DNA of 64,000 nucleotides, from positions 17,157,501 to 17,221,500 of the forward strand of contig JAQISU010000081.1 of the NCBI GenBank assembly GCA_029339505.1, given 5' to 3'. Below are positions 49,361 to 64,000 of the stretch, piece after piece; position 1 is the first letter of the stretch, and every line of letters begins with the position of its first letter. The position numbers and the translations under genes are program-made. The DNA comes from Unio delphinus. Its lineage: Eukaryota; Mollusca; Bivalvia; Unionida; Unionidae. Under the pieces are notes generated by a model. It saw only the letters and a list, made by a program, of their open reading frames with translations. It was not told the origin of the DNA and searched no databases.

Positions 49361-49650
49361 AGCAGCAGAGAGGGTGAATCCTACAACGTTTTTAGACAAA
49401 ATTTGATTGAAATCCTAAAACGAGCCGTCTTATAATCTTATTTTAACCAAAAAAAAGGCGAACCCTACAACGTTTTCAGACAAAAAATTGATTGAAATCT
49501 CCCTACGAAATCATTTTAACTAAAAAAATGAAAACGATTTTTTAATCAATTTTGGTCGCAACTTGTTGTCATCCACCCTCTCTGCTGCTAAAGTTTTCAG
49601 TTCTGGGTTAATAATTCTTTTACGATTTTAACCGAATATTTGATCAAGTC
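49361..49650. repeat. Left terminal inverted repeat
   Basis: The outermost bases AGCAGCAGAGAGGGTG (49361-49376) recur as a perfect 16-bp inverted copy at 49574-49589. Between them are two 84-bp-spaced direct copies of CTACAACGTTTT...GACAAA...TTGATTGAAATC (about 49381 and 49465). Positions 49541-49589 match the complement of 63952-64000 at 48 of 49 bases. Homology continues inward at lower identity to about 49650 and includes a copy of the last codons of the ATPase gene. Confidence 0.9.
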
Positions 49651-49660
49651 TTTAGGACGA

Positions 49661-49676
49661 AAATCATTTATGATTT
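49661..49676. terminator. Gene-end palindrome AAATCAT-TT-ATGATTT
   Basis: A 7-bp inverted repeat with a 2-bp loop contains the stop codon of the 462-aa gene. The same sequence follows the ATPase stop at 63909-63924. Confidence 0.4.
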
Positions 49677-51056: not shown

Positions 51057-51207
51057 GATTTATTTCTAATTTTGGTATCGAGGAATCATAAATACTGACC
51101 ATCACTGAGAATTCACAATCTGGTAATGTTGATATTATTGAGATCATTTTGTTTTTTGGGTTCGTGTTTTCTGATTCCATCGGTGTTGTCATTGTTATTA
51201 TACTCAT
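50950..51207 (-). CDS. Chimeric 85-aa ORF created by tandem duplication
   Basis: The first half (MSIITMTTPMESENTNPKNK) resembles the N-terminus of the following 462-aa protein (MSIMTT...ENTNP...MISI.ST). The second half (EFSVMVSIYDSSIPKLE..HEYN) resembles the C-terminus of the preceding 182-aa membrane protein (EFSAMVSIFDSAISKLERQHEYN). The DNA shows a tandem duplication with a 151-160 bp offset that explains both. It overlaps the 182-aa gene by 95 bp and the 462-aa gene by 107 bp in different frames. A TTAGA box lies 13 nt upstream of the ATG, copied with the duplication. Whether it is translated is unknown. Confidence 0.45.
   Translation of the reverse strand: MSIITMTTPMESENTNPKNKMISIISTLPDCEFSVMVSIYDSSIPKLEINHEYNDDTAGITSTSSGEHEPSTNEYDINNIYETRV
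51065..51069 (-). promoter_or_regulatory. TTAGA box before the 462-aa gene
   Basis: TTAGA on the minus strand, 13 nt before the first ATG and 22 nt before the second. Confidence 0.4.
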
Positions 51208-51661
51208 GTTGTCGCTCTAATTTCGATATCGCGGAATCAAAAATACTGACCATCGCTGAGAATTCACTATCTGATATAATCGTATTATCGAGTGACGACG
51301 ATATCATCAATGATAATTGCGAGTATGCGGTTGATGCAATATGAAATTGAAGTAAGTAATTCTGCAGTTTACTCTGGCTGCATGATGATATCTTTTTTGC
51401 TATCCCGGTTAATATACCCCCGATTGTAGCCACCGCAGAAATGCAAATTGGAACTACGACCGGGGCAATCATTGTAACAGATGCAAGTATTATTCCGGCA
51501 CCAGTGAGAACGCTTGACACCGAGTATATAATAACATCAATTGCGGTGATTCTTCGTCGGTATTTTTTTATTTTTATTTGATACTCCTCAGTGAGGGTTT
51601 TGAGTCTATTCTGAAATTCTCTGACCTGATCATAGCGACATTGCGTCGATGACAAAGTCAT
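51113..51661 (-). CDS. Two-helix membrane protein (182 aa)
   Basis: The N-terminus is a charged helix (VREFQNRLKTLTEEYQIKIK). It is followed by two hydrophobic, Ala/Val/Ile-rich segments at about residues 42-66 and 68-88, separated by a Pro. The second half is helical and ends in an acidic and Asn-rich tail. This layout (coiled coil, hydrophobic hairpin, coiled coil) suggests a membrane or virion-associated protein, perhaps involved in entry or egress. No enzymatic motif is visible. It is the gene downstream of the fibre-like gene. Between them lies a palindrome at 51699-51713. The last 95 bp overlap the chimeric ORF. Function is not known. Confidence 0.65.
   Translation of the reverse strand: MTLSSTQCRYDQVREFQNRLKTLTEEYQIKIKKYRRRITAIDVIIYSVSSVLTGAGIILASVTMIAPVVVPICISAVATIGGILTGIAKKISSCSQSKLQNYLLQFHIASTAYSQLSLMISSSLDNTIISDSEFSAMVSIFDSAISKLERQHEYNNNDNTDGIRKHEPKKQNDLNNINITRL
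51216..51220 (-). promoter_or_regulatory. TTAGA box before the 85-aa ORF
   Basis: Minus-strand TTAGA 13 nt before the ATG, copied together with the tandem duplication. Confidence 0.35.
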
Positions 51662-51698
51662 TGTTGTTTATTTTAAAAACACTAGCGTTTTCATTGTT

Positions 51699-51713
51699 AA
51701 ATCCGAAGGATTT
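51699..51713. terminator. Gene-boundary palindrome AAATCC-GAA-GGATTT
   Basis: A 6-bp inverted repeat with a 3-base loop lies between the fibre-like gene end and the membrane-protein start. CTAGCGTTTT is next to it. Similar palindromes lie at 55101-55115 and 55614-55628. Role is inferred; it could be a transcription end signal. Confidence 0.4.
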
Positions 51714-51727
51714 TCCTTTCAATTTAG

Positions 51728-52672
51728 TTATTTACTTAAATCCGCTACGAATTCCAGATACCATGTTACTGATGCCTTAGCCAAACTTTTATCATCGGCT
51801 TTTATCGTTAACCGTTCAGTTTTATCCTTGTCGATGATCGTTGAAATCGTATTGTTGACCCCGGATGAACTCGACGATGATATATTAAATTGAATTGGTG
51901 CTACCAGCGTTAATCGATAAATACCCTTGATAGTAGCTGTGATATCTAATTTGTTGTTTGCAGGTGTCCACTCAAATGATCCGTGTTGGATTGTATATAC
52001 TACGTTGTTGGTTTTCTCATGAGGAATTTTTGTTTTTTCAATGATTGTTATCATCCTCGAAAAATCACCTTTGACGGCTTCGATGAAAGTTTTCGTCTCA
52101 TCGATGGATTTTTTAATATCAGGGAGTTTTATTTCAATTTTATCCAACGTGGTTCCAATAAATTTATCCATGATGTTTCTACGAAAAATTGAAAAAAAAT
52201 TTCCGTTTTCTTCAATTTTAGATTCAAGTGTTGTTAGTACAATCACAGAATTGTTTACCACATCGCTGAGAAGTTCTAATCGATCTGTAATCGTCGAAAC
52301 GAGTACACCCGGTTTTAGTTTACCCTGATCGGAAAATAACGCGATAGTATCCTCGATTGCGTTTTGTTGTTTAACCAAAATATCATCCAGAGAAATATTA
52401 CTGGTTTTCAATTTACCCTGATCGGAAAATAACGCAACGGTGTTCTCGATTGCGTTTCGTTGTTTAACTAAAATATCATCCAATGACACATCACTGGATT
52501 TCAATTTACCCTGTTTGTCTTGAAATACAACTATTTCATTAGGATCAACACTTGTTAAGTTCAACGTCTCAGCTATTTCATCTTTGATTAGTTTTTTTAC
52601 ATCTTTGACAGAATCAGGTGGTGCAATGCCATCGGGTTTGGGTTTCAAAGATCTCCCCCAAATATCAATCAT
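51728..52672 (-). CDS. Fibre/spike-like protein with internal repeats (314 aa)
   Basis: A short N-terminus (MIDIWGRSLKPKPDG) could be a capsid anchor. It is followed by two and a half 31-aa repeats with GKLK(T/S)S(N/D)(I/V)SLDDILVKQ (about residues 55-118, DNA period 93 bp). A long helical stalk follows (about 120-210). The C-terminal domain of about 90 residues is beta-rich (QHGSFEWTPANNKLDITATI...YRLTLVAPI). The order anchor, repeated stalk, globular tip resembles viral fibres. This is inference from architecture only. It starts 1 bp after the protease stop and has a TTAGA box 27 nt upstream, inside the protease gene. Confidence 0.5.
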   Translation of the reverse strand: MIDIWGRSLKPKPDGIAPPDSVKDVKKLIKDEIAETLNLTSVDPNEIVVFQDKQGKLKSSDVSLDDILVKQRNAIENTVALFSDQGKLKTSNISLDDILVKQQNAIEDTIALFSDQGKLKPGVLVSTITDRLELLSDVVNNSVIVLTTLESKIEENGNFFSIFRRNIMDKFIGTTLDKIEIKLPDIKKSIDETKTFIEAVKGDFSRMITIIEKTKIPHEKTNNVVYTIQHGSFEWTPANNKLDITATIKGIYRLTLVAPIQFNISSSSSSGVNNTISTIIDKDKTERLTIKADDKSLAKASVTWYLEFVADLSK

Positions 52673-52673
52673 G

Positions 52674-53111
52674 TTATTGTAAAACTCTTTCTCTCTCTAA
52701 AAAGCGATTGCTGGTGTAGTCATTTACGACAATATGTGGTGGTTTTCCGCTTGGGTTACCCAAGGAGTTAGAAATAGCGTCAAGGACATTTAATACTTCG
52801 CTGCCACATATTGGTGGGTCAATCATCGTTTGTGTTGGTAGCGTAGAATACCAAGTCTTCATTGGAAGGGTTTTTATATACCGCATAAACTCTTTTGGCG
52901 GGGCTAATCCATATGAATCAAAATAGACAATCCCACGTGGATTAATAGCGTATGCAACCCAGTGAGTTCCAGGTCCGGTGCTGTTATCTAAATTAATGAT
53001 TCCGGTTTCAACGCTGTTTGGTTGATGTGGTAATTGATCTTTCATAAAGACACCTCTGAAGTTTTTAATCGCGAGTTTTTTAGCCGCATCCATTAAATCA
53101 AAATTGGACAT
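52674..53111 (-). CDS. Adenain-like cysteine protease
   Basis: C5-family (adenovirus-type) maturation protease. Numbered from Met 53111 (145 aa), the triad reads His50 in GPGTHWVAY, Asp65 in YFDSYG and Cys102 in PPICGSEVL, with Gln94 as a likely oxyanion residue. The family processes capsid and core precursors inside the assembling virion, often at (M/I/L)XGG-X or (M/I/L)XGX-G sites. Such sites occur in the pVI-like and core-like proteins next door. The frame is open up to a Met at 53177, but that would overlap the core-like gene by 46 bp. The start MSNFDL is preferred because the domain begins there. It lies 20 bp after the core-like gene stop. Confidence 0.88.
   Translation of the reverse strand: MSNFDLMDAAKKLAIKNFRGVFMKDQLPHQPNSVETGIINLDNSTGPGTHWVAYAINPRGIVYFDSYGLAPPKEFMRYIKTLPMKTWYSTLPTQTMIDPPICGSEVLNVLDAISNSLGNPSGKPPHIVVNDYTSNRFLERERVLQ
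52695..52699 (-). promoter_or_regulatory. TTAGA box before the fibre-like gene
   Basis: Minus-strand TTAGA 27 nt before the ATG at 52672. Confidence 0.4.
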
Positions 53112-53131
53112 GGGAACCATAGGTTCCTCAA

Positions 53132-53611
53132 TTAATAAATCGTTCCTGGTAGTCTTAGACCCTTTCCGCTGTACCACGAATACGGGGTTCCTGGTAGTCT
53201 TAGACCCAATCCGTGAACGGATCGTCCCTTTTTTTTATATCCTTTCCCAGTTGCCTTCTTTAGTGCCATTCCTGCTGCAGTACCAACGGCTCCTAACGCT
53301 GCCGCTTTAGCCACCGCTGGGGCTGCTGCTGCAATTAGCGCTGGAATCGCAGCTAACAACGGAAATATACCGCCTGTTTTAATCATATTTTTGATAGCAG
53401 CCGCAGAAAGAGTAATCTGAACACCTTTTTTGGCTGCAAGTGCATCATTGAAATGTTTCACCTGACGAGTTGTCAGCGATAGTTTATTTGCACCACCAGT
53501 CATTTGGTTGGGTTTCAACGTGATTGTGGTTCCACATCGCTTAACCGATTCTGATTGCAATTTTTTTAATTGACCGGGAGTTAACGTAACACTAATAACA
53601 CTATATGACAT
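53132..53611 (-). CDS. Core/minor-capsid-like protein (159 aa) with an adenain-type site
   Basis: The N-terminal half has two related segments (LTPGQLKKL... and LTTRQVKHF...), each ending near TGG. The first contains MTGG|A (about residues 38-42), which fits the adenain consensus. An Ala-rich hydrophobic stretch follows (about 86-117), then a basic segment (KKATGKGYKKKGR). The C-terminus has two copies of GLRLPGT(P/I)Y 15 residues apart, matched by a 45-bp DNA repeat at 53143 and 53188. The mix of basic, hydrophobic and cleavable parts suggests a packaged core or membrane-active protein, similar in role to adenoviral pX or pVI; this is inference. The gene lies between MCP and protease. Confidence 0.6.
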   Translation of the reverse strand: MSYSVISVTLTPGQLKKLQSESVKRCGTTITLKPNQMTGGANKLSLTTRQVKHFNDALAAKKGVQITLSAAAIKNMIKTGGIFPLLAAIPALIAAAAPAVAKAAALGAVGTAAGMALKKATGKGYKKKGRSVHGLGLRLPGTPYSWYSGKGLRLPGTIY

Positions 53612-53629
53612 TATACATAATAGATTGAT

Positions 53630-53634
53630 TCTAA
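53630..53634 (-). promoter_or_regulatory. TTAGA box before the core-like gene
   Basis: Minus-strand TTAGA 23 nt before the ATG at 53611. Confidence 0.45.
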
Positions 53635-53650
53635 TTCAATGAAAAATCAA

Positions 53651-55069
53651 TCAAAGATTTTCTACTGGTGCATCTACCACTCTCATTCTTCCTCCAACAC
53701 CTTCGAGTAGCATTGATTTGTCGCTGAGAATGACAGCAACCGCTCTATAATTATCAATAGCATCAGGCTTATCTACATTAGCTCTAAAGTGTATATCAAC
53801 GACGGATTGTCTTGTTAAATCGAGATGTTCCAGTGAGAAGTAATAGATCGGATATAGATTTTTAAAATCAAATTGTGATATTTGCAAACCAGTATCAACA
53901 TTTTGATCGCGTGCCATAAATGACAACAGACGATGATAAACTCGTGCAATATGATTTTCTTTGTAATTAAGTTGTATATCCTCGGATGGTTCCTGTTGGC
54001 CATTTATTCTCAGTGAGACGTCTTTCACACCTAATTGATCAAATATCATATGACTGTAACGTTGATCTCCAACTCTTTTATTATCTTGTAACGCTACAAA
54101 TATATGACGTGGCGCAGTAACACCTTGTTTTGATGCTAGATTCCACGTGAATAACCCGTTGAGATTTGATTGTTTAACATCTGTACTCACGGTTAGCCAA
54201 CTCAACAACGACTTTCCTCCTTGGTCCATAAATGATAGTAATCGTTCTTCTGCGGTGATTGCTGGAGTCAACACTGGCATCCACAATGATATTTTTGTTA
54301 ATTTGACTTTACCGGCATCATCATTTACATGATCTGCAGCTGGGTTTGCTGGAATCCTCCAAATTGCGTCATTATCATCACCCTTTCGTACAAGCGATAC
54401 TGTATGCTTCGCCCCATAAATAACTTTTCGGACGTTTCTACAGAATCCAAATATATGATGTAGTGGAATCGCGCATGAAAATGATTTACGCTCTCCTTGC
54501 AACATTGCGTTTCGTGTTGCGGCTCCTAGATTGAAATTAACGTCGTTGTTTATAATCATATTCTCGACATCAGCATCACTATTATCACGTTTTTTTGGTC
54601 GTCTTACAACAAATGGATTTCCTCCAGCGGTATTCTTACCATCTTTTGCAAACATCATAGAGGGTCCTGCTGATCTTGTATAATCATCAGAATATCTCGC
54701 TAACCCGATTATTGTTGTAGCCATATCAACATCGCGATCTATGGACTCAATTTCTTTACCATCAATGAGATATCTAGCACTCTCAAATAACGCCATAATA
54801 CCATTATTGACAAAACCGACTTGAGTACCATCTGGATACGGTGCTGGTACAGCAGGAGTATCATCAGCTGTTACAAGTTCTCCTTCTACTTCAATAAACG
54901 CTTCACAGGGCAAAAAGTATTTACTGGTATCATGGACTTGAAGTTCAATTCGCGATCGACTATTTGCGTCTATTGCATGATAAGCGTAATATTGATAATC
55001 GCGTACAGAATCATCCTTGCCAACTGGGGCGTCTATATCAAACGCCGGATCATGTGATTTTTTGAACAT
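53651..55069 (-). CDS. Major capsid protein, probable double jelly-roll type (472 aa)
   Basis: Length, beta-rich composition and context fit a double jelly-roll capsid protein. Segments I recall from capsid genes of related invertebrate elements are FLPCEAFIEVEGEL (about 51-64), PLHHIFGFCRNVRKVIYGAKH (about 201-222) followed by TVSLVRKGDDNDAI, and near the C-terminus SVVDIHFRA. The N-terminal SVRDYQYYAYHAID starts the fold without a signal peptide. It lies between pVI-like and core-like genes, as expected for a morphogenetic cluster. A TTAGA box lies 24 nt before the ATG and a palindrome lies just upstream. No structural prediction was possible here; a model would be decisive. Confidence 0.75.
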   Translation of the reverse strand: MFKKSHDPAFDIDAPVGKDDSVRDYQYYAYHAIDANSRSRIELQVHDTSKYFLPCEAFIEVEGELVTADDTPAVPAPYPDGTQVGFVNNGIMALFESARYLIDGKEIESIDRDVDMATTIIGLARYSDDYTRSAGPSMMFAKDGKNTAGGNPFVVRRPKKRDNSDADVENMIINNDVNFNLGAATRNAMLQGERKSFSCAIPLHHIFGFCRNVRKVIYGAKHTVSLVRKGDDNDAIWRIPANPAADHVNDDAGKVKLTKISLWMPVLTPAITAEERLLSFMDQGGKSLLSWLTVSTDVKQSNLNGLFTWNLASKQGVTAPRHIFVALQDNKRVGDQRYSHMIFDQLGVKDVSLRINGQQEPSEDIQLNYKENHIARVYHRLLSFMARDQNVDTGLQISQFDFKNLYPIYYFSLEHLDLTRQSVVDIHFRANVDKPDAIDNYRAVAVILSDKSMLLEGVGGRMRVVDAPVENL

Positions 55070-55088
55070 TTTATTCTATTTATCAGAG

Positions 55089-55093
55089 TCTAA
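55089..55093 (-). promoter_or_regulatory. TTAGA box before the capsid gene
   Basis: Minus-strand TTAGA in the context GATTTAGACTC, 24 nt before the ATG at 55069. Confidence 0.5.
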
Positions 55094-55100
55094 ATCGTAA

Positions 55101-55115
55101 AAATCCGTAGGATTT
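55101..55115. terminator. Gene-boundary palindrome AAATCC-GTA-GGATTT
   Basis: Lies between the pVI-like gene end (55132) and the MCP start. A second inverted pair (AAATCG...CGATTT) is adjacent. Confidence 0.4.
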
Positions 55116-55131
55116 TCATCGTAAACGATTT

Positions 55132-55581
55132 TCATCGACGTAGTTTTTTAAAGCCGCTTCCTGCTATCATATTTGCAATATTGCTTTGGTCCCCTTGATT
55201 TATCAAGGGAGTTAAAGCCATCGACGCTAATTTTTCGTCTACTGCGTTATTTATAATTCTACTAACACTTGCAGGCATTTCCGCTGTAGACGGTAACGGT
55301 TTCTTTTTTCGTGATTTCACTAATGATGTTAATTTATTCCTCGCAGTTGAAAACGCTTTTCCAGCAAGATCTCCAACAGCACCAATACCCTTATCACGAA
55401 TAACTTCAATTGCTTTCATTCCTAGTTGTTTAGCCAACGGCATCACTTTTGGAGCCATTCTCGCAAATAACCCTGCAATGGTATTGCCTAAACCATCTCC
55501 GTAGTATGCTCTATAAACTGGAAACCGTGAATTAACTACGTAGACGGGGGCTGGTTTATCATGATTGTAGTGTATGATCAT
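55132..55581 (-). CDS. pVI-like capsid cement protein with cleavable basic tail (149 aa)
   Basis: After a short N-terminal arm (YRAYYGDGLGNT) comes an amphipathic helix (IAGLFARMAPKVMPLAKQLG, about residues 35-54). A Gly/Ala-rich helix, a basic linker (KSRKKKP) and a helical tail follow. The last residues are IAGS|GFKKLRR, a fit to the adenain site (M/I/L)XGX-G that would release a 7-residue basic peptide. In adenoviruses pVI has this design: an N-terminal amphipathic, membrane-lytic helix and a C-terminal basic peptide that activates the protease. The parallel is by layout, not by sequence alignment. The gene is directly upstream of MCP in the leftward block and shares a 30-bp leader with the 342-aa gene. 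Confidence 0.65.
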   Translation of the reverse strand: MIIHYNHDKPAPVYVVNSRFPVYRAYYGDGLGNTIAGLFARMAPKVMPLAKQLGMKAIEVIRDKGIGAVGDLAGKAFSTARNKLTSLVKSRKKKPLPSTAEMPASVSRIINNAVDEKLASMALTPLINQGDQSNIANMIAGSGFKKLRR

Positions 55582-55611
55582 TATTTGAAATCAGAAACCA
55601 TTTTTCAATTG
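55582..55611 (-). promoter_or_regulatory. 30-bp leader shared with the 342-aa gene
   Basis: Directly abuts the ATG at 55581 and matches 56689-56718 at 29 of 30 positions. Its core is GTTTCTGATTTCAAATA. It lacks a TTAGA box and so may be a second promoter class. Confidence 0.5.
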
Positions 55612-55613
55612 TG

Positions 55614-55628
55614 AAATCCTTCGGATTT
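55614..55628. terminator. Gene-boundary palindrome AAATCC-TTC-GGATTT
   Basis: Lies between the 342-aa gene end (55660) and the pVI-like start. ACGCTAGCGT is adjacent at 55631-55640. Confidence 0.4.
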
Positions 55629-55659
55629 CCACGCTAGCGTTTTTATTCAGTCTCGGTGA

Positions 55660-56688
55660 TTAATCACTGTGATAATCCTCCACTAACTCGCCAATGAATT
55701 CTCGATATGTGCTGATATCCATGATACCGCCGGCAAATAACCGTCTACAGATATCAGATGCTTCATTAATTATTTCCGGTGAGTTATTTCCAGCTCGGAA
55801 CCCTCCTACAAGAACTTCTAATCGTGATATATCATTGATAACACTACCAGGACAGAAACCCGAAGAGTTTCCAACTAAACCACTGCCTGAAAATCCTTTG
55901 GTTTTATCAGTGATACCGGTTGCACCTTTTTCATGATCAGCTTCTCTCGTTATTTTCATCTGTTGGGGGGATTGTGTTATATCAATAAATTTTGATTGTT
56001 CTGGTAGTCTAAGAAATCCGGTATCCGATTGCTCCCCTATAGATGATTCAGCTTTTTTTATTGCTGCCATATATTCCTGAAATGTTTTATCATCTCCTTT
56101 TGCTTGAGAGGAACCTGATAGTATACGATATAACCCCCTATACCAATCTTTTTTAGGGGGAAGATTATAATCACCTTGAATATATTTTCTTCTCTGATGA
56201 AAACTCCTAGTGACAAATTGGGCTAATTCTTCCATAGAATCAAATTTTTTATTTCTCAATTCATCTAATTTACCGGGAAGAAGTTTTTCATTGAATGCAA
56301 CTCGTCCACTAGTAGTATCCTCCCCTTCTTCTTGAAATTCGGGTGGGGGGAGATCTTGAAGTTCTCGTTGTTGTTCTGAAGCGGTTGATATATCCTGAGG
56401 AAGTGTTTTCAATGATTTTTTTGTTTGTTTAGTTCTTTTTGCTATTTTTTCTAACACAGGAAGAAAAGACTCTTCTTGTTTTTTTCCTTCTTCAGAGATT
56501 GTTGACACTATCTGTTTCGTTGCTGTGGTTACTGGTTTAAACAATTCTTCAGACCCCACAGCAAAATCAGTTTGTAAACTCTGTCGTTGTTGCAGTTTAT
56601 TCCGTACAGAGTCGCGAATTGGTACAAATTTCTTAATTGCATCCAGTCGTTCACGAGCCAATCGGGTTGTTAATGCTTCATTGACCAT
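55660..56688 (-). CDS. Unknown helical protein (342 aa), possible virion component
   Basis: I do not recognise a family. Residues about 1-110 are rich in Lys, Glu and Gln and likely form coiled coil (LFKPVTTATKQIVSTISEEG, then KIAKRTKQTKKSLK). A Pro/Glu-rich linker follows (DLPPPEFQEEGED). A middle region contains LDELRNKKFDSMEELAQFV and a YIQGDYNLPPKKDWYRGLYRIL block. The C-terminal part is helical, with LVGG|F, a loose match to the adenain site. The position upstream of the pVI-like and capsid genes, with the same leader as pVI-like, suggests it is co-expressed with the morphogenetic cluster. Whether it is structural is inference. Confidence 0.6.
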   Translation of the reverse strand: MVNEALTTRLARERLDAIKKFVPIRDSVRNKLQQRQSLQTDFAVGSEELFKPVTTATKQIVSTISEEGKKQEESFLPVLEKIAKRTKQTKKSLKTLPQDISTASEQQRELQDLPPPEFQEEGEDTTSGRVAFNEKLLPGKLDELRNKKFDSMEELAQFVTRSFHQRRKYIQGDYNLPPKKDWYRGLYRILSGSSQAKGDDKTFQEYMAAIKKAESSIGEQSDTGFLRLPEQSKFIDITQSPQQMKITREADHEKGATGITDKTKGFSGSGLVGNSSGFCPGSVINDISRLEVLVGGFRAGNNSPEIINEASDICRRLFAGGIMDISTYREFIGELVEDYHSD

Positions 56689-56718
56689 TATTTGAAATCA
56701 GAAACAATTTTTCAATTG
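56689..56718 (-). promoter_or_regulatory. 30-bp leader shared with the pVI-like gene
   Basis: Abuts the ATG at 56688. It differs from the pVI-like leader by one base. Confidence 0.5.
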
Positions 56719-56796
56719 CAAAACACTTTTTCAATCCCGACCTAACACCATCGATTTTTGACATCCCTTGAGGGTCGGCTAAAAAAAATGATTAAT

Positions 56797-56888
56797 GGTC
56801 GGGCAATCAAATAATGATAAATAGTCGGTCAATCAAATAATGATAAATAGTCGGTCAATCAAATAATGATAAATAGTCGGTCAATCAA
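56797..56888. repeat. 26-bp tandem repeat, ~3.5 copies
   Basis: Unit GTCGGTCAATCAAATAATGATAAATA with exact 26-bp spacing (56824, 56850, 56876 plus a variant first unit). It lies in the only notable non-coding gap of the leftward block and could be an enhancer or origin; this is speculation. Confidence 0.9.
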
Positions 56889-57241
56889 AATTGTTCATTT
56901 TCTTGAATTAACGCCCGTAGGTTTCTAACTTTAGAATTAACCTCCTTTTTCAATTCGTATTCGTACCCCAATTCTTTTCGTATTCGTTCTACGATGGTAT
57001 ACAACGGAGCGAACACACTTACGTCACTGGAAAATGCGAGAGAGTCCTTAATAGAATTCTGAATTCTTTTGATGAGCGCATACTTCTTTGGTAGCATATA
57101 CTTGTTAGTGCTAACTCCGTATTCTATGTCCTGAAAATCAGACATGATTTGATCAGGATTTAACCCATCTGATAGTTCAATATCCCAACCTTTCAATTTT
57201 GAAATCTCGGATATGATGTTATTCATGTTTTCAGAATTCAT
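56885..57241 (-). CDS. Unknown small helical protein (118 aa)
   Basis: No family recognised. The protein is charged and helical throughout, with ISEISKLKGWDIELSDG near the N-terminus and IVERIRKELGYEYELKKEV near the C-terminus. It has no cysteines, signal peptide or membrane segment. The stop lies in the last copy of the 26-bp repeat, and a TTAGA box is 27 nt before the ATG. It is placed between the HNH gene and the structural block, a site where small regulators are possible, but no function can be supported. Confidence 0.6.
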   Translation of the reverse strand: MNSENMNNIISEISKLKGWDIELSDGLNPDQIMSDFQDIEYGVSTNKYMLPKKYALIKRIQNSIKDSLAFSSDVSVFAPLYTIVERIRKELGYEYELKKEVNSKVRNLRALIQENEQF

Positions 57242-57263
57242 TATTCTATAATAATGATATATT

Positions 57264-57268
57264 TCTAA
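57264..57268 (-). promoter_or_regulatory. TTAGA box before the 118-aa gene
   Basis: Minus-strand TTAGA in the context CATTTAGAAAT, 27 nt before the ATG at 57241. Confidence 0.45.
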
Positions 57269-57285
57269 ATGAAAAATATGACGTA

Positions 57286-57777
57286 TTAGACATAACTAAA
57301 TTGAATTTTCTGTCCGCTCTTTTTTGAAATAGCCGATCGACAAACCCCCTCTGCAACATATCGTACTGAGGGTCTACAAATATTGAAATACTTGCCGGCT
57401 TCATATATTGATTTAAATACTTTTTCTTCGTTAGTTATTGTATTCAAAGATTTCACAGGTCTCGCTTTTTTCGAGTATTTCCCAGTCCTTCCTCGTTTGG
57501 TATTCTCACTATGTGTGATTGCTTGAAGATTTGATAAGGAATTGTTCTTCGGATTAGAATCAATATGATCAATAACAAAACCATCTTTGATCAATCCATG
57601 GAAACATTCATACACGAAACGATGATTGTAATATTTCTTCTTTCCAACAGTAAAGAACAAATACCCCATACCATTATCCCACCCAACTGGGTTCTTCAGT
57701 CTACGGTTTCTTACAACACCATCACTGGATGCTTCATAATTTGTACTCACTGGGTGTGGTCTGAATTCCTGGTTCAT
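57286..57777 (-). CDS. HNH homing-type endonuclease (NUMOD4-HNH-NUMOD1 layout)
   Basis: Residues about 8-50 resemble a NUMOD4-like module (YEASSDGVVRNRR then GYLFFTVGKKKYYNHRFVYECFHG). The HNH core follows with DGFVIDHIDSNPKNNSLSNL (about 66-85) and a downstream SENTKRG. The C-terminal part (KVFKSIYEAGKYFNICRPSVRYV) fits a NUMOD1-type helix-turn-helix that binds DNA. Such genes are free-standing homing endonucleases of phages and large DNA viruses, cutting at specific sites and spreading their own gene. It is transcribed away from the polymerase gene, with 97 bp between the start codons, and carries its own TTAGA box 24 nt upstream. The gene appears complete. Confidence 0.85.
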   Translation of the reverse strand: MNQEFRPHPVSTNYEASSDGVVRNRRLKNPVGWDNGMGYLFFTVGKKKYYNHRFVYECFHGLIKDGFVIDHIDSNPKNNSLSNLQAITHSENTKRGRTGKYSKKARPVKSLNTITNEEKVFKSIYEAGKYFNICRPSVRYVAEGVCRSAISKKSGQKIQFSYV

Positions 57778-57796
57778 TCGTATACTATACTATTTG

Positions 57797-57801
57797 TCTA
57801 A
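57797..57801 (-). promoter_or_regulatory. TTAGA box before the HNH gene
   Basis: Minus-strand TTAGA in the context GAATTAGACAA, 24 nt before the ATG at 57777. Confidence 0.5.
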
Positions 57802-57832
57802 TTCATTGACTGATCCATTTGCAGTGATTCAT

Positions 57833-57840
57833 TATATAAA
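57833..57840 (+). promoter_or_regulatory. TATA-like box of the polymerase gene
   Basis: TATATAAA, 42 nt before the polymerase ATG. Confidence 0.4.
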
Positions 57841-57850
57841 AATCTTTCAT

Positions 57851-57855
57851 TTAGA
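57851..57855 (+). promoter_or_regulatory. TTAGA box before the polymerase gene
   Basis: TTAGA in the context CATTTAGACAC, 24 nt before the ATG at 57875. Confidence 0.5.
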
Positions 57856-57874
57856 CACTTGTTTTTAGTATAGC

Positions 57875-60800
57875 ATGATGAAGTTCAAGAGATTGACTTC
57901 GAGAAATGCTAAATTTAATGCTGATAGAGAGTTTAAGAGATTATTGAAAATCAGTCCTAGATTTAATCTCGATAGACCCAAAAAACGTAACAAACGTCCA
58001 AGAGACGGAAACATGAAAGAGTTTAAGAGATTATTGAAAATCAATCCTAGATTTAATCTCGATAGACCCAAAAAACGTAACAAACGTCCAAGAGACGGAA
58101 ACATGAAAGAGTTTAAGAGATTATTGAAAATCAGTCCTAGATTTAATCTCGATAGACCCAAAAAACGTAACAAACGTCCAAGAGACGGAAACATGAAAGA
58201 GTTTAAGAGATTATTGAAAATCAGTCCTAGATTTAATCTCGATAAACCAAAAAGACGTAACAAATTTAATCTCGATAAACCAAAAAAAACGTCCAAGAGA
58301 GATTACCCCTGGAAAGATGCTCAATTCAATCTCGATATAGCTTCTAATACACCAAAGAATACAATTCTTGATAAAGCCATGATTAGTAAAATCAGAGACT
58401 GTTTTAATGAATTTAAGCGTGATGGAGCATCTTATTGTTGGTCAACATTTCGAATTGATGGTGTTGTTGATGCTACCATGAATGATGAAAAAGCAGCAGT
58501 GATAATTTCACGTGTTGGGGAAAAACGGCATTTTTTCCGAATCAAATTCATTATCGAAGTCGAAGGCAAATGGATTATTAAGGATAAATTTGAACCAATC
58601 CTCAAGAATAAAAAAGCTGTCATTGTGAGTAGAGATTCCAAACCAGGGATTCTAACCGGCATTGATAAACCATACTACGAAAGATCTTATCCCGTAACAG
58701 CAATGGTTTATGGGATATATCCGTTAAATGATAAACCCGATATCGCAAAACTAGCTCCTATGAAATATTCGTCAGGGCTTAATTGTGTAGCAGAACGAAT
58801 AATAGAACACTTCACAAATGCATCCCGAGGAAATAAACTAACTGATCTGCGACGTAGGAAAATAACCGAGTGGGAACTGACAGTGAAACAGAACGGTGCA
58901 AAGATTTCTGATATAGCTAAATTAGAAACATCATTAAGATTTCCAATAACAGTTATGACGATAACCGGAGAGGTTTTATACGAACCGAAATATAACAAAA
59001 ATGGAGCACCAATACAGATTATTGATCATAATAAACACGCGTGGACACCTGCGGTAACAGTATTTCCACGAGAACGAACCGTGAAATATATCCCTAAGGA
59101 GTTCGTCCGGGATGTTTTCTATGAAGAGAGATTATTTGATGCTATTCATGCGTTGTGTAAGGATGATCCTGTGTCAGTGTGGTTACTTAGAAGTGATGAA
59201 GAATTCGATCAATTTGTAAAACCAAATGGTGAATTATATCGCGTTGAAGAATTAGATAACAGAATGAGAAAAATCGCTAGTGATTTTTCAGCGGAGAATT
59301 CCCATGAAAAACTACTCACGGATAGTTTTACTATTCCATCAGTGGTAGCTCACTTCGCAAGAGAAAAAAACTCATGGCGTCCAACACGAAGTGATTTTCT
59401 CGAGGATGTTAAATTGAGTTGCGTCGAATTTGGTCATGGAGGACTGTGGAATACGAAATACTCACGTGATGGTATGATTTCAATTGATATAGCCGCGTGT
59501 TATCCCGGAAGTTTTCTCGGGTATGGGGAATGCGCTGAGTACTTCAAACGATTTGGACACCCCACGCATGAAATGACTCGTGTTGCGATTAATGGACCAT
59601 TGCCTGATTTTGATTTAACCGGATTCGCTCGTGTGATATCATTTGAATTAGCTACAGGGTTACATCCGTGTAGTTATGTTTGGCTCGGTAGACACCTTTC
59701 TGAAAAACACTGGATGCCAATAGTGCTATTGAGATATATGATTGATTGTGGTATGCTAATATCGTTGATTGTTTCCGAGGCTATTATATGCTATCGAGCT
59801 CAGAAAGAAGTTTGGCTACCACAACCCGATCTAGATAGAATAATCAACGAACTACGAAAACAGTTTCCAGATTTCAGTGAAGAAGAAATCATAAATTGGT
59901 CTAAGAAGTTATTTGAAATTAAAAAAGAACAAGCAAAAGATCTCGGAAGAAGAATAATCGGTAAATTTACCCAGGGTGGACGATACGATAACGCAAAATA
60001 CTCTTCGCGGTTGATCATAGATGTCGCTGAATACGATTTTATTGTAGCGGATTTAATGAAACAGGGAAAACTTGTATCCCGTAAGGATGCTTTTCTATCC
60101 AATGGTGAGAAATTAGGTACGGTCGTTACCTACTGTGATGGATATAATTCCCAGTACACACACTTAAGAAGTTCAATGTTAGCCTATGCTTGCATTAATC
60201 TATTTTCGATGATAAATAGATTTCCTAATACCGCGGTTAGAGTGGCCACTGATTCGATGTATATACACAATAAGTTCAAATCAGCTGTAGCGGCATTCAC
60301 AGATCCCGAAGAAAATTGGGGGCGTTGGCGATTTAAAAAAGAGATGCTACATGAGTATTGTGAATCCGCAGACGTTGCCATGGATGATAAATATCTTTGT
60401 TGTAACCGTATTGAAATTCAATCAGAATTTTCTAATGCACCACCGGTATCTGATCCAGTATGTAGATATAAGACAGTTTATTTAAACGGTTGTGGTGGGT
60501 CAGGAAAGACAACTCGTGCAATTGAATTATATCGTGGTGGTGGAAATACTTGTATTTCTACTAACATGATTGTGCTAACACCGACTCACAGACTCGCCAG
60601 AGAGATGATACAACGAGGGGTAAATGCTTGCACTTATCACAGCTTCTTTCGATGGAAGGGTGACAAATGGACTCCTGATCGAATGGGTGATAAATTCATT
60701 CCTGAAATCATAATCTGGGATGAAATATGCACAGTGTCATTAGATGTATTAAAAACATTTCTTGAGTGGTTGTTAACCAAAAACACAAAAGTCGTCATGT

Positions 60801-61570
60801 GCGGGGATCAAGGCCAACCACCACCATTTGTCGGTGCATCTCCACATGAATGGCTAAAGGGTTTTGTAGACTACTATGAAGAAATCACCACTGATTATAG
60901 ATCACTTGATGAACGATTACGCGAGTTCAAAGCGCTAATTAGATTACAACCGGATAGAATCCAATGCGAAATAGCGCGCGAAGTGATTTCAGAAACTCCA
61001 ATGAATGATTTCTGGGAAGCGTGGAGACCAAACGATTTGATCATTGCAAGTAGAAAAATAGTCAGGGATACACTTCAGATGAAGTTATTTGAATTGCATA
61101 AAGAAAAATTTGCAACGCTTCCAGTACCCCTTTGTTATAGGCCATCGGATACACGAAAACAAAACATTGAAGTTGATATTCCAGGACAGAGTGAAAAACA
61201 AATTCTGGTATTAAATGATATTGTGCTGGTTGATATCAATGTCGTTGAAGATGCATTGCGTGCTAATAAATCCCCGTGGACGCTAGGATACGCAGCAACA
61301 ATACACTCTTCACAGGGATTGACTATATCGGATACAATTGTTTGGATGGTAGATAATCGCATCGAATGGTCAAATTTAGTCTATCTCGCAGTATCCAGAG
61401 TACGAAACATAAATCAACTTCGAAGAATTGTCTTCGATGATGAAATCATTGGTGATGATAATGACACAACAATAAGTGATATTGATGTTAGCATCATTAA
61501 TAAAAAACTCTCCGGTTACAAACAACAGGACAAAAAAAACAACGAGAATTTGATATTGATGCTAAATTAA
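57875..61570 (+). CDS. DNA polymerase B - SF1 helicase fusion (1231 aa)
   Basis: Replication protein of the element. Residues 1-150 are basic and contain 30-aa repeats. Next comes a region with NCVAERI (about 307) and a DHNKHAW motif, of unknown role. The polymerase palm has motif A DIAACYPGSF (D538), motif B RRIIGKFTQGG (K697) and motif C ATDSMY (D793). No clear 3'-5' exonuclease motifs were seen. The C-terminal third is a superfamily 1 helicase. It has Walker A GCGGSGKTT (K878), Walker B IIWDEIC (D949-E950), motif III GDQGQPPP (D978), motif V TIHSSQG (H1144) and motif VI AVSRVRN (about 1175). Polinton polymerases are protein-primed; the terminal-protein part cannot be identified here. The ORF ends ten codons after a slippery A-run. 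Confidence 0.88.
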   Translation: MMKFKRLTSRNAKFNADREFKRLLKISPRFNLDRPKKRNKRPRDGNMKEFKRLLKINPRFNLDRPKKRNKRPRDGNMKEFKRLLKISPRFNLDRPKKRNKRPRDGNMKEFKRLLKISPRFNLDKPKRRNKFNLDKPKKTSKRDYPWKDAQFNLDIASNTPKNTILDKAMISKIRDCFNEFKRDGASYCWSTFRIDGVVDATMNDEKAAVIISRVGEKRHFFRIKFIIEVEGKWIIKDKFEPILKNKKAVIVSRDSKPGILTGIDKPYYERSYPVTAMVYGIYPLNDKPDIAKLAPMKYSSGLNCVAERIIEHFTNASRGNKLTDLRRRKITEWELTVKQNGAKISDIAKLETSLRFPITVMTITGEVLYEPKYNKNGAPIQIIDHNKHAWTPAVTVFPRERTVKYIPKEFVRDVFYEERLFDAIHALCKDDPVSVWLLRSDEEFDQFVKPNGELYRVEELDNRMRKIASDFSAENSHEKLLTDSFTIPSVVAHFAREKNSWRPTRSDFLEDVKLSCVEFGHGGLWNTKYSRDGMISIDIAACYPGSFLGYGECAEYFKRFGHPTHEMTRVAINGPLPDFDLTGFARVISFELATGLHPCSYVWLGRHLSEKHWMPIVLLRYMIDCGMLISLIVSEAIICYRAQKEVWLPQPDLDRIINELRKQFPDFSEEEIINWSKKLFEIKKEQAKDLGRRIIGKFTQGGRYDNAKYSSRLIIDVAEYDFIVADLMKQGKLVSRKDAFLSNGEKLGTVVTYCDGYNSQYTHLRSSMLAYACINLFSMINRFPNTAVRVATDSMYIHNKFKSAVAAFTDPEENWGRWRFKKEMLHEYCESADVAMDDKYLCCNRIEIQSEFSNAPPVSDPVCRYKTVYLNGCGGSGKTTRAIELYRGGGNTCISTNMIVLTPTHRLAREMIQRGVNACTYHSFFRWKGDKWTPDRMGDKFIPEIIIWDEICTVSLDVLKTFLEWLLTKNTKVVMCGDQGQPPPFVGASPHEWLKGFVDYYEEITTDYRSLDERLREFKALIRLQPDRIQCEIAREVISETPMNDFWEAWRPNDLIIASRKIVRDTLQMKLFELHKEKFATLPVPLCYRPSDTRKQNIEVDIPGQSEKQILVLNDIVLVDINVVEDALRANKSPWTLGYAATIHSSQGLTISDTIVWMVDNRIEWSNLVYLAVSRVRNINQLRRIVFDDEIIGDDNDTTISDIDVSIINKKLSGYKQQDKKNNENLILMLN
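57929..58290 (+). repeat. 90-bp in-frame repeats in the polymerase N-terminus
   Basis: Units start at 57929, 58019, 58109 and 58199. The first three are nearly identical; the fourth is cut short and followed by a further partial copy. Each encodes EFKRLLKISPRFNLDRPKKR followed by NKRPRDGNMK, a strongly basic 30-residue segment. The near identity means recent expansion. Confidence 0.95.
61534..61540 (+). promoter_or_regulatory. Slippery heptamer A AAA AAC, putative -1 frameshift site
   Basis: In the polymerase-helicase frame the codons are AAA AAA AAC (61532-61540), giving the canonical X XXY YYZ heptamer. The zero frame stops at 61570. The -1 frame is open from 61504 to 61755 and encodes a treble-clef HNH module. 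No strong stem is obvious by eye in the next 10-15 nt, which are AT-rich. Confidence 0.55.
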
Positions 61571-61755
61571 TAATCACTTTGAAGAAACAACAGAATAATC
61601 ACTGCGCGAGTTGCAATTGTATAATGCGTTGGCAGTATTCGGATAAGGATCCTCGCCAATTCACCGTAGACAGAAAAAATAACAATCTCGGTCATGTCAG
61701 AAATAATGTGATGTTGACTTGTCTTGAGTGCAATAGACGCAACGGCGCTAGTTAA
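61540..61755 (+). CDS. HNH/treble-clef module in the -1 frame of the polymerase-helicase
   Basis: Seventy-one codons and a stop. A CxxC pair (61603-61614) is followed by VDR, GH and N residues and a closing TCLECNRR (CxxC at 61720-61731). This spacing fits an HNH or endonuclease VII-like zinc treble clef. The first ATG in this frame lies after the first CxxC, so a start there would lose the metal site. The module is therefore likely reached only by -1 frameshifting from the upstream gene, or the A-run has lost a base in this copy or assembly. Its stop overlaps the end of the convergent integrase gene by 8 bp, as expected in a compact genome. In related elements I recall a similar zinc module at the end of the polymerase protein, from memory only. 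Confidence 0.65.
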   Translation, partial: QREFDIDAKLIITLKKQQNNHCASCNCIMRWQYSDKDPRQFTVDRKNNNLGHVRNNVMLTCLECNRRNGAS

Positions 61756-62710
61756 GACCATGCGGTGGCAATTGAGTATCCTCGGGAATCACTTGCAGTT
61801 GTTGTCGAGTAAATCCTCGCTGAGGAGCAGTTGAATCCAGTTTATAGATTGCTGGTCTACCAGTTGATCGTGTTATACTAGATATCTTATGCGTAGTGAC
61901 GCTCCAAATAGGATCAGTAGCCCTTTTTCTACCCCCTTCAAGCTCTCCTGGTTCGTATAAGTACCTAACAGTGACATTACTACCAAGAATTGGTTGGGAA
62001 ACGCTAGCGTTTCTAGGGAAATCTTTTTGTGGTTGTACGGGTATAGACTTCTTTTTAATCGCGTTGATAGGTTTCATGTTGATTGTTCTAGTAATCTCGT
62101 TATTCAGTGCAGTAATCACAGCTGGTAACCTTTTGACCCATTCACGGGATCGCTTTTCTTGAATGAATTCTTTTGCGTATTGATATCCAAATAACCGCTC
62201 AGCAATCGTCCGATTAAATCGTTCTACAATGGCCTGATCGCGATGTAGCGCAGTATGCCCTCGTCGTATGGTGACATTATGATGTTTCATTGTAGATAAC
62301 ACTGCACCCTGAAATTCCTTGCCAGGATCAACTTGTAACAGATTTGGCCAGTGCAGAGGACCTCGTCGATAAATCCTTTCAAATGCAGAAGCGACTTCAG
62401 TGGCCGATTTTGTCCTTAGCGGTTCTGCTTCTTTGTATCGACTCGCAACATCAACTACGGTTAGCGCGTATTTGTAACCACGATCATGTGGCAGAAATAA
62501 TATATCAGCCTGATGAACTTCATTAGGAGCGGTCACATCAAAATGCGAGAATTGAATTTGTTTAGGCGGTGGTAGATAAATTTGCCATAGTGCCTGTTTG
62601 GATAACCAATTAGCCGCAGTGGTTTTTTTCACTTTTGCAGCTCTAGCGAGTTTATTGATTGCAGCGTTACCCCTCCAGTATCCCCTCGGAGAATAATAAA
62701 TTGATTCCAT
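61748..62710 (-). CDS. Retroviral-like DDE integrase (320 aa)
   Basis: rve-type integrase of Polintons, which joins the element ends to target DNA. Counted from Met 62710, the N-terminal domain has YYSPRGYWRG and a helix-turn-helix-like ALWQIYLPPP region. The catalytic core has D69 in HQADILFLP, D128 in LLQVDPGKEF and E163 in QAIVERFNR, with about 35 residues between the last two. The C-terminal part (about 250-310) is beta-rich and ends RGFTRQQLQVIPED, like the SH3-type C-domain. The ORF is open up to a Met at 62728, but 62710 is preferred: it begins at the conserved MESIYY segment and lies 4 bp after the PLA2 stop. TTAGG lies 22 nt upstream. It converges on the polymerase unit. Confidence 0.92.
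   Translation of the reverse strand: MESIYYSPRGYWRGNAAINKLARAAKVKKTTAANWLSKQALWQIYLPPPKQIQFSHFDVTAPNEVHQADILFLPHDRGYKYALTVVDVASRYKEAEPLRTKSATEVASAFERIYRRGPLHWPNLLQVDPGKEFQGAVLSTMKHHNVTIRRGHTALHRDQAIVERFNRTIAERLFGYQYAKEFIQEKRSREWVKRLPAVITALNNEITRTINMKPINAIKKKSIPVQPQKDFPRNASVSQPILGSNVTVRYLYEPGELEGGRKRATDPIWSVTTHKISSITRSTGRPAIYKLDSTAPQRGFTRQQLQVIPEDTQLPPHGLN
62000..62011. other. Palindrome AACGCTAGCGTT inside the integrase gene
   Basis: A perfect 12-bp palindrome. CTAGCG cores also occur next to the gene-boundary palindromes near 51681 and 55631, so it may be a recurrent element motif. Confidence 0.35.
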
Positions 62711-62714
62711 ATTA

Positions 62715-63074
62715 TTAATTACCAGCACCTAACATCAATTTACTTTTCATAGCCGATTTTATCAAAAATGAAGCCAATTTTTCTTTGAAAGATTTATCAG
62801 GAATAGCATTTAACGCATGAATTAATTTCACATCCGCGAGATGCCTGTTTTGCAGATTGCTGCTTTTATAAGCAACATCATGAAGGTGACAGGCCTTATC
62901 AATGGCATTTATTGGTTCTTCACCGGGGTTGGGTTGATTTTGATTATTGAGTCTGATATCAAGTCTGGTTCCCGGTCCACAGTAGCTATATCCTGGAAGG
63001 TGCTTTTCTCCGGGGTATTTTGCCCATGGGGTTCCAGGGAGTTTTGCTAATTTGGCTGCGATATCACCTCCTCG
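62715..63074 (-). CDS. Phospholipase A2 domain in the -1 frame of the zinc-ribbon ORF
   Basis: 119 codons. The calcium-loop segment SYCGPGTRLD (about residues 30-39) and the catalytic ACHLHDVAY (His65-Asp66) match the parvovirus VP1-type PLA2. Parvoviral capsids use this domain to breach the endosomal membrane. Upstream is the typical LPGTPWAKYPGEKHLPGY entry. The first Met of this frame lies near the C-terminus, and a TGA in this frame lies four codons before the slip point. The domain therefore cannot be made from its own AUG. It begins exactly at an A AAA AAC heptamer in the zinc-ribbon gene. A frameshifted fusion protein is the simplest reading; a homopolymer error is the alternative. It ends 4 bp before the integrase ATG. 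Confidence 0.82.
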   Translation of the reverse strand, partial: RGGDIAAKLAKLPGTPWAKYPGEKHLPGYSYCGPGTRLDIRLNNQNQPNPGEEPINAIDKACHLHDVAYKSSNLQNRHLADVKLIHALNAIPDKSFKEKLASFLIKSAMKSKLMLGAGN

Positions 63075-63232
63075 TTTTTTTTTAAATCAGATCTCATAGA
63101 CACAAATCTAAATTTCTTTGTACCACATTGCACGCATTTACCAGAAAGCGCTGATCGGTTATTTTTAGTTGTAACCGTCGTCACATCATCTGTGCCAGTA
63201 CGCGTTTTACACTTCACACAATATAGATCCAT
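63047..63232 (-). CDS. CxxC zinc-ribbon protein (61 aa), zero-frame product
   Basis: Two CxxC pairs, C5-C8 (YCVKCK) and C33-C36 (KCVQCG), with a TTKNNRSALSGKC linker, fit the small viral zinc-ribbon family I recall as DUF5679. After KFRFVSMRS comes the A-run with the slippery heptamer at 63080-63074. The zero frame then runs nine more codons to a stop at 63047. Frameshifting would instead attach the PLA2 domain. The start codon lies only 5 bp from the divergent ATPase start, so promoter elements must lie within coding sequence. Confidence 0.75.
   Translation of the reverse strand: MDLYCVKCKTRTGTDDVTTVTTKNNRSALSGKCVQCGTKKFRFVSMRSDLKKNEEVISQPN
63074..63080 (-). promoter_or_regulatory. Slippery heptamer A AAA AAC, putative -1 frameshift site
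   Basis: On the minus strand the zero-frame codons are TTA AAA AAA AAC, so the heptamer is in the canonical register. Nine As are present (63083-63075). The -1 frame continues 119 codons as PLA2, while the zero frame stops after nine codons. Confidence 0.6.
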
Positions 63233-63237
63233 AATTT

Positions 63238-63909
63238 ATGTATAGAAATATGGATATAATTGATTTTTCAGCGACTAAAACAAGAGAACCAATTAAGCAT
63301 CATGCAGCGCTACCAAACTCTATCCGGATGATTATAATCGGGCCATCTGGATCCGGTAAAACGCAATTGTTGCTCAATTTAATAATGAGATGGATGAAGT
63401 GGGATAAGTTGTATTTAATTGCCCCTAGCGTAGATGATCAACGATGTTATGAAGTGCTAAAAGATTTTAACGAGAATGCATCAGAAATTAAGGGTGAGAA
63501 CGCCATTGATTTTATAACCGATATCGATGAAGCACCGAGTATTGATGATATTGATGGAGATATTAACAATTTAGTCGTATACGACGATATAATGTTGGAT
63601 AAACAAAAGAATCCTGCTAGAATATTTTCCCGTGGGCGTCACAAAAACACTGACGTGATATATGTCACTCAACGCTACACTCAGGTTCCAAAAGTCATCA
63701 GAGATAACTGTAATTTATTGTCTGTATTCAACGGAGTTGATACTCATACGCTACGAAATATTTGGCAGACATGGTGTTCTGATATGGACTTCAATCAATT
63801 TCGAGATTTCTTTAGTTATGCTCAGTCGACTCCGCACGGATTCGCAACAATAAATCTACATGATCCTCGGACACGATATCGTATCGGACTGGATCAAATA
63901 TTCGGTTAA
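63238..63909 (+). CDS. FtsK/HerA (A32-like) genome-packaging ATPase (223 aa)
   Basis: Pumps the genome into the procapsid in Polintons and related viruses. Walker A is GPSGSGKT (K41), and Walker B is LVVYDDIM (D116-D117). After it come FSRGRHKNTDVIYVTQRY, the arginine and sensor region typical of A32-like ATPases, and a C-terminal DMDFNQFRDFF segment. A second Met at 63250 (MDIIDF) could be the true start, since the first ATG leaves only 5 bp to the divergent zinc-ribbon start. The last codons are part of the terminal-repeat homology, and the stop is followed by the same palindrome as at the left end. Confidence 0.9.
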   Translation: MYRNMDIIDFSATKTREPIKHHAALPNSIRMIIIGPSGSGKTQLLLNLIMRWMKWDKLYLIAPSVDDQRCYEVLKDFNENASEIKGENAIDFITDIDEAPSIDDIDGDINNLVVYDDIMLDKQKNPARIFSRGRHKNTDVIYVTQRYTQVPKVIRDNCNLLSVFNGVDTHTLRNIWQTWCSDMDFNQFRDFFSYAQSTPHGFATINLHDPRTRYRIGLDQIFG

Positions 63910-64000
63910 AATCATTTATGATTTTTTGTTAACCCAGTGATGAAATCACTAAGCAGCAGAGAGGGTGGATGACAACAAGTTGCGACCAAAATTAATTAAA
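63905..64000. repeat. Right terminal inverted repeat, partial
   Basis: 63952-64000 is the complement of 49541-49589 with one mismatch in 49. The inner part from about 63890 also matches, including the end of the ATPase gene. About 180 bp of the repeat should follow outside the window. Confidence 0.9.
63909..63924. terminator. Gene-end palindrome AAATCAT-TT-ATGATTT
   Basis: It follows the ATPase stop directly and is identical to 49661-49676. Confidence 0.4.

Follow-up and report, generated by a model that had tools for sequence, protein, structure and literature searches.

A candidate -1 ribosomal recoding site between a zinc ribbon and a phospholipase A2 in a Polinton of Unio delphinus

At the right end of a 64,000-nt stretch of Unio delphinus contig JAQISU010000081.1 (the window, meaning the whole stretch analysed), a Polinton, or Maverick, carries two genes whose zero frame closes shortly after the heptamer A_AAA_AAC and whose -1 frame continues into a further domain (Table 1). 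Site 1 lies between a large open reading frame (ORF) and an HNH/endonuclease VII-like tail, and site 2 between a DUF5679 zinc ribbon and a parvovirus-type phospholipase A2 (PLA2). The explanation that we favour, with a probability of roughly two in three, is that site 2 is a genuine -1 ribosomal recoding site used in a minority of passes, with a role for the PLA2 in the virion, and that variation in run length most probably accounts for site 1. The PLA2 stands in the -1 register behind the heptamer with its frame intact and under purifying selection, and no AUG precedes its first part in the window.

An earlier note had proposed two recoding sites of one design, and as far as the window itself is concerned its description holds: the same heptamer, a -1 shift, an added domain of a metal-binding type and a near zero-frame stop are found at both sites, the heptamer being separated by 27 nt from the TAA at 61568-61570 at site 1 and by 24 nt from the TAG at 63049-63047 at site 2. 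The site 1 tail matches a PHROG endonuclease VII profile (E 2.8e-8) as well as HNH families, its match to Pfam HNH (E 0.015) falling under the cut-off of that family, and its frame, open over 61504-61752, holds no Met ahead of the first CxxC. The PLA2 retains the calcium loop YCGPG and the HD pair; its frame, open from 63086 to 62718 on the minus strand, has a stop just 5' of the A-run and no ATG ahead of residue 113. By itself A_AAA_AAC is unsurprising and common in the AT-rich window, with 38 occurrences against 31.9 (standard deviation 4.8) in shuffled sequence, a count reached in 11 of 100 shuffles; 19 of the 38 fall inside the Polinton. Across copies, the two junctions do not stand or fall together, site 1 being mostly fused and site 2 mostly -1, and the idea of a shared design is abandoned.

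Copies were read in two samples from the same genome. For the main sample the query started downstream of the site 1 run and touched neither junction; 150 copies were scored from 28,108 candidates, and DNA-level readings come from the first 70 of these 150 rows, which are richer in intact main frames than the others (open frame short, at 134 aa or less, in 10/70 vs 52/80 of the rest). The second sample comprised 30 loci including the window itself (L030), and its query began upstream of the site 1 run, thereby favouring the window's state, so it was not used in estimating the site 1 ratio. As the copies are related, all p-values are nominal.

At site 2, the register was -1 in 54 of the 59 readable copies of the main sample, fused in 3 and +1 in 2, the locus having ended or a motif being missing in the other 11 of the 70. 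The second sample, window included, gave 19 copies in -1, 3 fused and 3 in +1 (25 in all; 18/3/3 of 24 with an earlier script), bringing the -1 state to 73/84 over both. Large ORF and tail share one frame in 49 of the 54 main-sample copies that are -1 at site 2, which are thus not broken at site 1. The -1 state also persists across classes of the spacer between ribbon and run, which differ in length by whole codons: it was read in 41/45 copies with VSM.., 11/11 with ISTKSKILQSGDVL and 2/3 with VSKPKEPL. One copy (L022) joins a ISTKSKILQSGDVL-like ribbon and spacer to a PLA2 of the window type, which suggests recombination between lineages.

The heptamer AAAAAAC was present in 73/73 site 2 -1 copies, the window's among them, and the slip codons read AAA AAA AAC in 54/54, although the rest of these genes uses AAG for 27-35% of Lys and AAT for 55-72% of Asn codons. 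The share of -1 copies differs sharply from that at site 1 (1/70), where the A-run is of similar length and the set is biased to intact frames (Fisher p 3e-29); even if all 62 short-frame rows of the 150 are counted as -1 at site 1 and set against 73/84, p is 4e-12. Conservation of the heptamer and of the downstream stop, put forward in the note as a check, was borne out among these copies for the former only: a short zero-frame product is encoded in 52/73 -1 copies, and the near stop was rejected as support for site 2, not being conserved among them. An assembly error was likewise rejected as the cause of the site 2 register, given that 54/59 copies and further sequences from other sources are -1.

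The PLA2 of the -1 copies is under strong purifying selection. Its frame is full length in 71 of the 73, and for the 39 -1 copies of the VSM class the pooled ratio of nonsynonymous to synonymous polymorphism (pN/pS) is 0.092, against 0.328 for the rve integrase of the same copies, which served as an in-frame yardstick; random disjoint pairings within this class gave 0.066-0.112 for PLA2. Over all 52 -1 copies the two values lie closer (PLA2 0.153, integrase 0.226). In pairs with dS > 0.05, the ratio of nonsynonymous to synonymous divergence (dN/dS) is well below 1 in PLA2 and lies at 0.24-0.33 in the zinc ribbon. Young pairs (dS < 0.02) show a ratio of 0.27, the pattern to be expected when constraint falls on active lineages and inserted copies are left to drift. 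A deep pair of copies, both -1 (L020 and L092), combines dS 1.22 with dN 0.043 in PLA2; here the constraint could instead have been inherited from a fused ancestor. Such constraint would not be expected of an untranslated domain, and with nearly the whole class in the -1 state it was most probably exerted on an out-of-frame PLA2.

Under the favoured reading, ribosomes translating the zinc ribbon would slip by -1 at A_AAA_AAC in a minority of passes, so that the gene would yield mostly a short zinc-ribbon protein together with some zinc-ribbon/PLA2 fusion, and the PLA2, by analogy with parvovirus VP1, may help incoming particles to cross membranes. In most copies a single frame encodes both the large ORF and the tail, and site 1 would involve no recoding.

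Relatives from other sources indicate how such a gene may have arisen. A protein search with the zinc ribbon, which leaves out fused ORFs by length, returned 28 ORFs, of which, by eye, 19 cross the junction with the geometry of the window, 6 with +1 geometry and 3 in an undecidable manner. Among 96 PLA2 proteins, the ribbon lies in the same ORF in 35, and the starts of others fall, also by eye, in the -1 reading of a ribbon in 6 cases and in the +1 reading in 1; the closest match with an organism name is P0081 from the mussel Sinanodonta woodiana. The 15 more distant PLA2 matches with a recognisable ribbon are fused, from which the ribbon/PLA2 fusion is likely to be ancestral, with the proviso that shifted distant copies would escape notice. 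It seems probable, with slightly less assurance than for recoding itself, that one Polinton lineage turned a fused ribbon/PLA2 gene into a programmed -1 gene with the PLA2 as a minor product and that its sister lineages stayed fused.

Several observations weigh against this account of site 2. The same genome is rich in sister lineages with a fused gene, and these neighbours do without recoding: a fusion-spanning query, biased towards fused copies, gave 151 matches, all of those listed but the last having both domains in one frame, with open frames of 166-222 aa and, by eye, internal stops in about a quarter. Placed on the PLA2 tree, the -1 state of 7 rows calls for 7 changes compared with 6.6 in shuffles, so that it was gained or lost repeatedly, and the poorly resolved ribbon tree requires 11 changes against 17.1 in shuffles; P0165 (-1) and P0168 (+1) have one and the same zinc-ribbon sequence. 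Seven divergent copies, hand-picked from 150 matches to the -1-favouring query P0002, comprised 6 in -1 and 1 in +1, with the heptamer in 4 of these 6; in one of them (L107) the A-run does not contain the heptamer, and L108, which lacks a clean run or a clean frame, is apparently shifted elsewhere. The zero-frame products of the 73 -1 copies vary in length (61-68 aa in 52, 107-114 aa in 20 and 50 aa in 1). Finally, the predicted fold downstream of site 2 is no stabler than in shuffles (z -0.22 and +0.54, pseudoknots being outside the model), and no covariation was detected there, 1 of 35 pairs having changed on both sides.

The alternative that best survives, though we consider it unlikely, is transcriptional slippage, in which the RNA polymerase would stutter on the A-run and place both domains in one frame in some of the mRNAs. 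The run is indeed long in -1 copies: of the 73, 54 have 9 A, 18 have 8 and one has 7. L107, as said, keeps a long run in place of the heptamer, two other divergent copies (L103 and L109) have runs of 10, and the failure to find an RNA structure downstream of site 2 would also fit. Against it, when copies of both samples are classed by junction context, the shorter-run class is about as firmly -1 (15/17) as the longer-run class (38/45), and the heptamer is invariant in the -1 copies, neither point being decisive.

A further possibility is that, in copies with the same state as the window, -1 shifting also takes place at site 1. The phased heptamer and the open tail frame agree with this, and in the sample biased towards this state 15 of 30 copies, window included, were -1, with 11 fused, 3 in +1 and 1 unread; by eye, about 100 of the 150 rows listed by the same biased query match the open-frame length of the window. 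The window's state is accordingly a minority variant that is not unique to it, which also counts against dismissing site 1. Of 52 database homologues of the large ORF, however, 41 continue into the tail without a change of frame, P0138 and P0148 with part of it only; the nearest homologue, P0097 (71% identity, 92% in the tail), has it in the same ORF. In the remaining 11 homologues, the ORF stops short of the tail or passes into unrelated sequence, P0100 stopping about 20 residues before the junction and P0134 seemingly being out of frame from just before it. In the first 70 rows of the main sample, 61 copies are fused, 8 are +1 and 1 is -1, the last missing a base near the A-run and not inside it; the ten short-frame rows among them account for 8 +1, 1 -1 and 1 fused. 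Judged by the length of the open frame, no fewer than 88 of the 150 listed copies are intact, and the fused state is therefore the commonest at site 1, with 61/70 overstating its share.

Copies that are -1 at site 1 occur on at least two upstream haplotypes, in itself a point in favour of a state wider than the window, and these haplotypes also occur with fused frames, for which reason recurrent drift of the run fits better than one programmed state. The tails are too similar for a selection test. A second A-run just upstream (window 61502-61507; L003-L017) varies in length between copies, so that two runs subject to drift lie near each other at the C-terminus of the large ORF. Site 1 is thus most likely a frame-changing run-length variant in a minority of copies and no recoding site, and we regard a working site 1 as improbable. 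Fused frames in most relatives, which the earlier note had named as evidence against recoding, are what was found at site 1 and not at site 2, where copies of its own family are predominantly -1.

It is less probable still that homopolymer indels in dead or wrongly assembled copies account for both junctions, without any recoding. The note's caution that the loss of one A would mimic the -1 register is apt for site 1, which is mostly fused elsewhere, and drift in run length is real, with departures from the modal length in 4 of 67 measured copies at site 1 and 6 of 50 at a T-run in the integrase; all three registers were also found at site 2 in other sources. Drift of this size alone cannot yield the 54/59 observed at site 2, and both the selection on PLA2 in -1 copies and the -1 ORFs from other sources oppose this explanation, which for site 2 is largely refuted. 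Least probable of all is access to the PLA2 through splicing or a non-AUG start in the -1 frame: some Polinton genes do contain introns, but a simple register-changing intron would cut into 'GGDIA...PW', a stretch conserved among -1 copies, and in the window the stop 5' of the run and the lack of an early ATG stand against it.

The host element is identified as a Polinton by its repeats, integrase, ATPase and capsid protein. Its terminal inverted repeats, of about 229 bp and reaching beyond the window end, are near-identical (one mismatch and one 2-bp gap) and are flanked by a 5-bp target duplication, CCATT (window 49356-49360; L002 283-287), where six bp is usual for Polintons; on these grounds the copy is complete and probably young. 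A separate homing-endonuclease-like HNH_3/NUMOD1 protein (57286-57777, minus strand) adjoins the large ORF within the element. First-look candidates in the host genome numbered 54,397 for the ribbon/PLA2 protein, besides those already given for the tail, with 150 scored per search, which points to a possibly very large family in this 2.5-Gb assembly.

Table 1. Features of the Polinton and of its two junctions, in window coordinates.
Feature	Position	Strand	Remarks
Polinton (Maverick)	49361..64000	.	Extends ~182 bp beyond the window end
Adenain-like protease	52674..53177	-	Weak Peptidase_C5 match, E 0.0066, under the Pfam cut-off
Major capsid protein, double jelly roll (DJR-like, PF21738)	53651..55069	-	Above cut-off
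Large ORF, zero frame	57875..61570	+	Stop 61568-61570; Pif1-type helicase in the C-terminal part by profiles
Site 1, -1 frame: HNH/endonuclease VII-like tail	61504..61755	+	CxxC...GHxxxN...CxxC
Site 1 heptamer A_AAA_AAC	61534..61540	+	Within a run of 8 A; phased with the large ORF
rve integrase	61748..62728	-	rve profile 38 bits, cut-off 32.6
Site 2, -1 frame: parvovirus-type PLA2 (PF08398)	62715..63086	-	E 2.3e-12; 47.5 bits vs cut-off 23.9
Zinc ribbon DUF5679 (PF18930), zero frame	63047..63232	-	TAG stop 63049-63047
Site 2 heptamer A_AAA_AAC	63074..63080	-	End of a run of 9 A; phased with the DUF5679 frame
Packaging ATPase	63238..63909	+	Pox_A32 match above cut-off

The polymerase part of the large ORF is a putative PolB, the protein-primed polymerase typical of Polintons, so named from its order of motifs and its size; searches with profiles and with the sequences of solved structures matched the helicase part of the ORF and returned no polymerase match. 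The N-terminus of the ORF (57875-58300, plus strand) begins with about four near-identical tandem repeats, each of roughly 30 residues. Relatives of it are encoded on JAADDH010000070.1 (L001), a contig of an archaeal Diapherotrites metagenome-assembled genome (a partial match of 43% identity, not used), and by P0141, labelled Candidatus Thiodiazotropha; both may be eukaryotic DNA in microbial bins. Viral contigs scanned with single sequences and alignments for PLA2 and PolB yielded no relatives.

We know of no earlier -1 recoding site in a Polinton that is supported by selection, and site 2, if correctly interpreted, would be the first; a double-stranded DNA (dsDNA) transposon-virus would then set the dose of an enzyme with recoding in the style of retroviruses. 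The -1 and fused lineages would form a natural pair with which to ask why a membrane-passage enzyme should be rationed in a virus-like element, and the many natural copies of both architectures make recoding at site 2 directly testable. They also illustrate how easily a single copy misleads, site 1 resembling site 2 and yet being most likely a run-length variant.

Frameshifting by -1 at A_AAA_AAC is known in retroviruses, for instance at the gag-pro junction of mouse mammary tumour virus. Site 2 resembles that junction in its heptamer and phase and in extending a small N-terminal protein by an enzyme domain encoded downstream, in what would be a fraction of the products; it differs in lying in an animal DNA transposon/dsDNA virus and in that no stimulatory structure was found. 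The earlier statement that no -1 frameshifting is known from Polintons and adintoviruses has to be qualified, as PMC11071296, in which adintoviruses are defined by a PolB with an N-terminal OTU-like domain, a hexon reciprocal by BLASTp and an integrase chromodomain, describes -1 slippery sites predicted with KnotInFrame towards the 3' end of certain Penton genes of adintoviruses. That prediction, the only one to turn up in a limited literature search, which found no published -1 site in a ribbon/PLA2 gene, concerns a related kind of element and likewise a -1 extension with an alternative C-terminal domain; it involves another gene and a predicted isoform, whereas the -1 domain at site 2 is a recognised enzyme with evidence of selection. 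Parvovirus-type PLA2 lipases are encoded by some Polintons according to PMC4642659, and the PLA2 of the window belongs to the same family (PF08398) as these and as that of parvovirus VP1, from which it differs in being attached to a DUF5679 zinc ribbon and, in its own family, in occupying the -1 frame. The fused elements, P0003, P0005, P0009, P0010 and others, carry the same two domains in the same order as the Polinton of the window and, unlike it, need no change of frame to join them.

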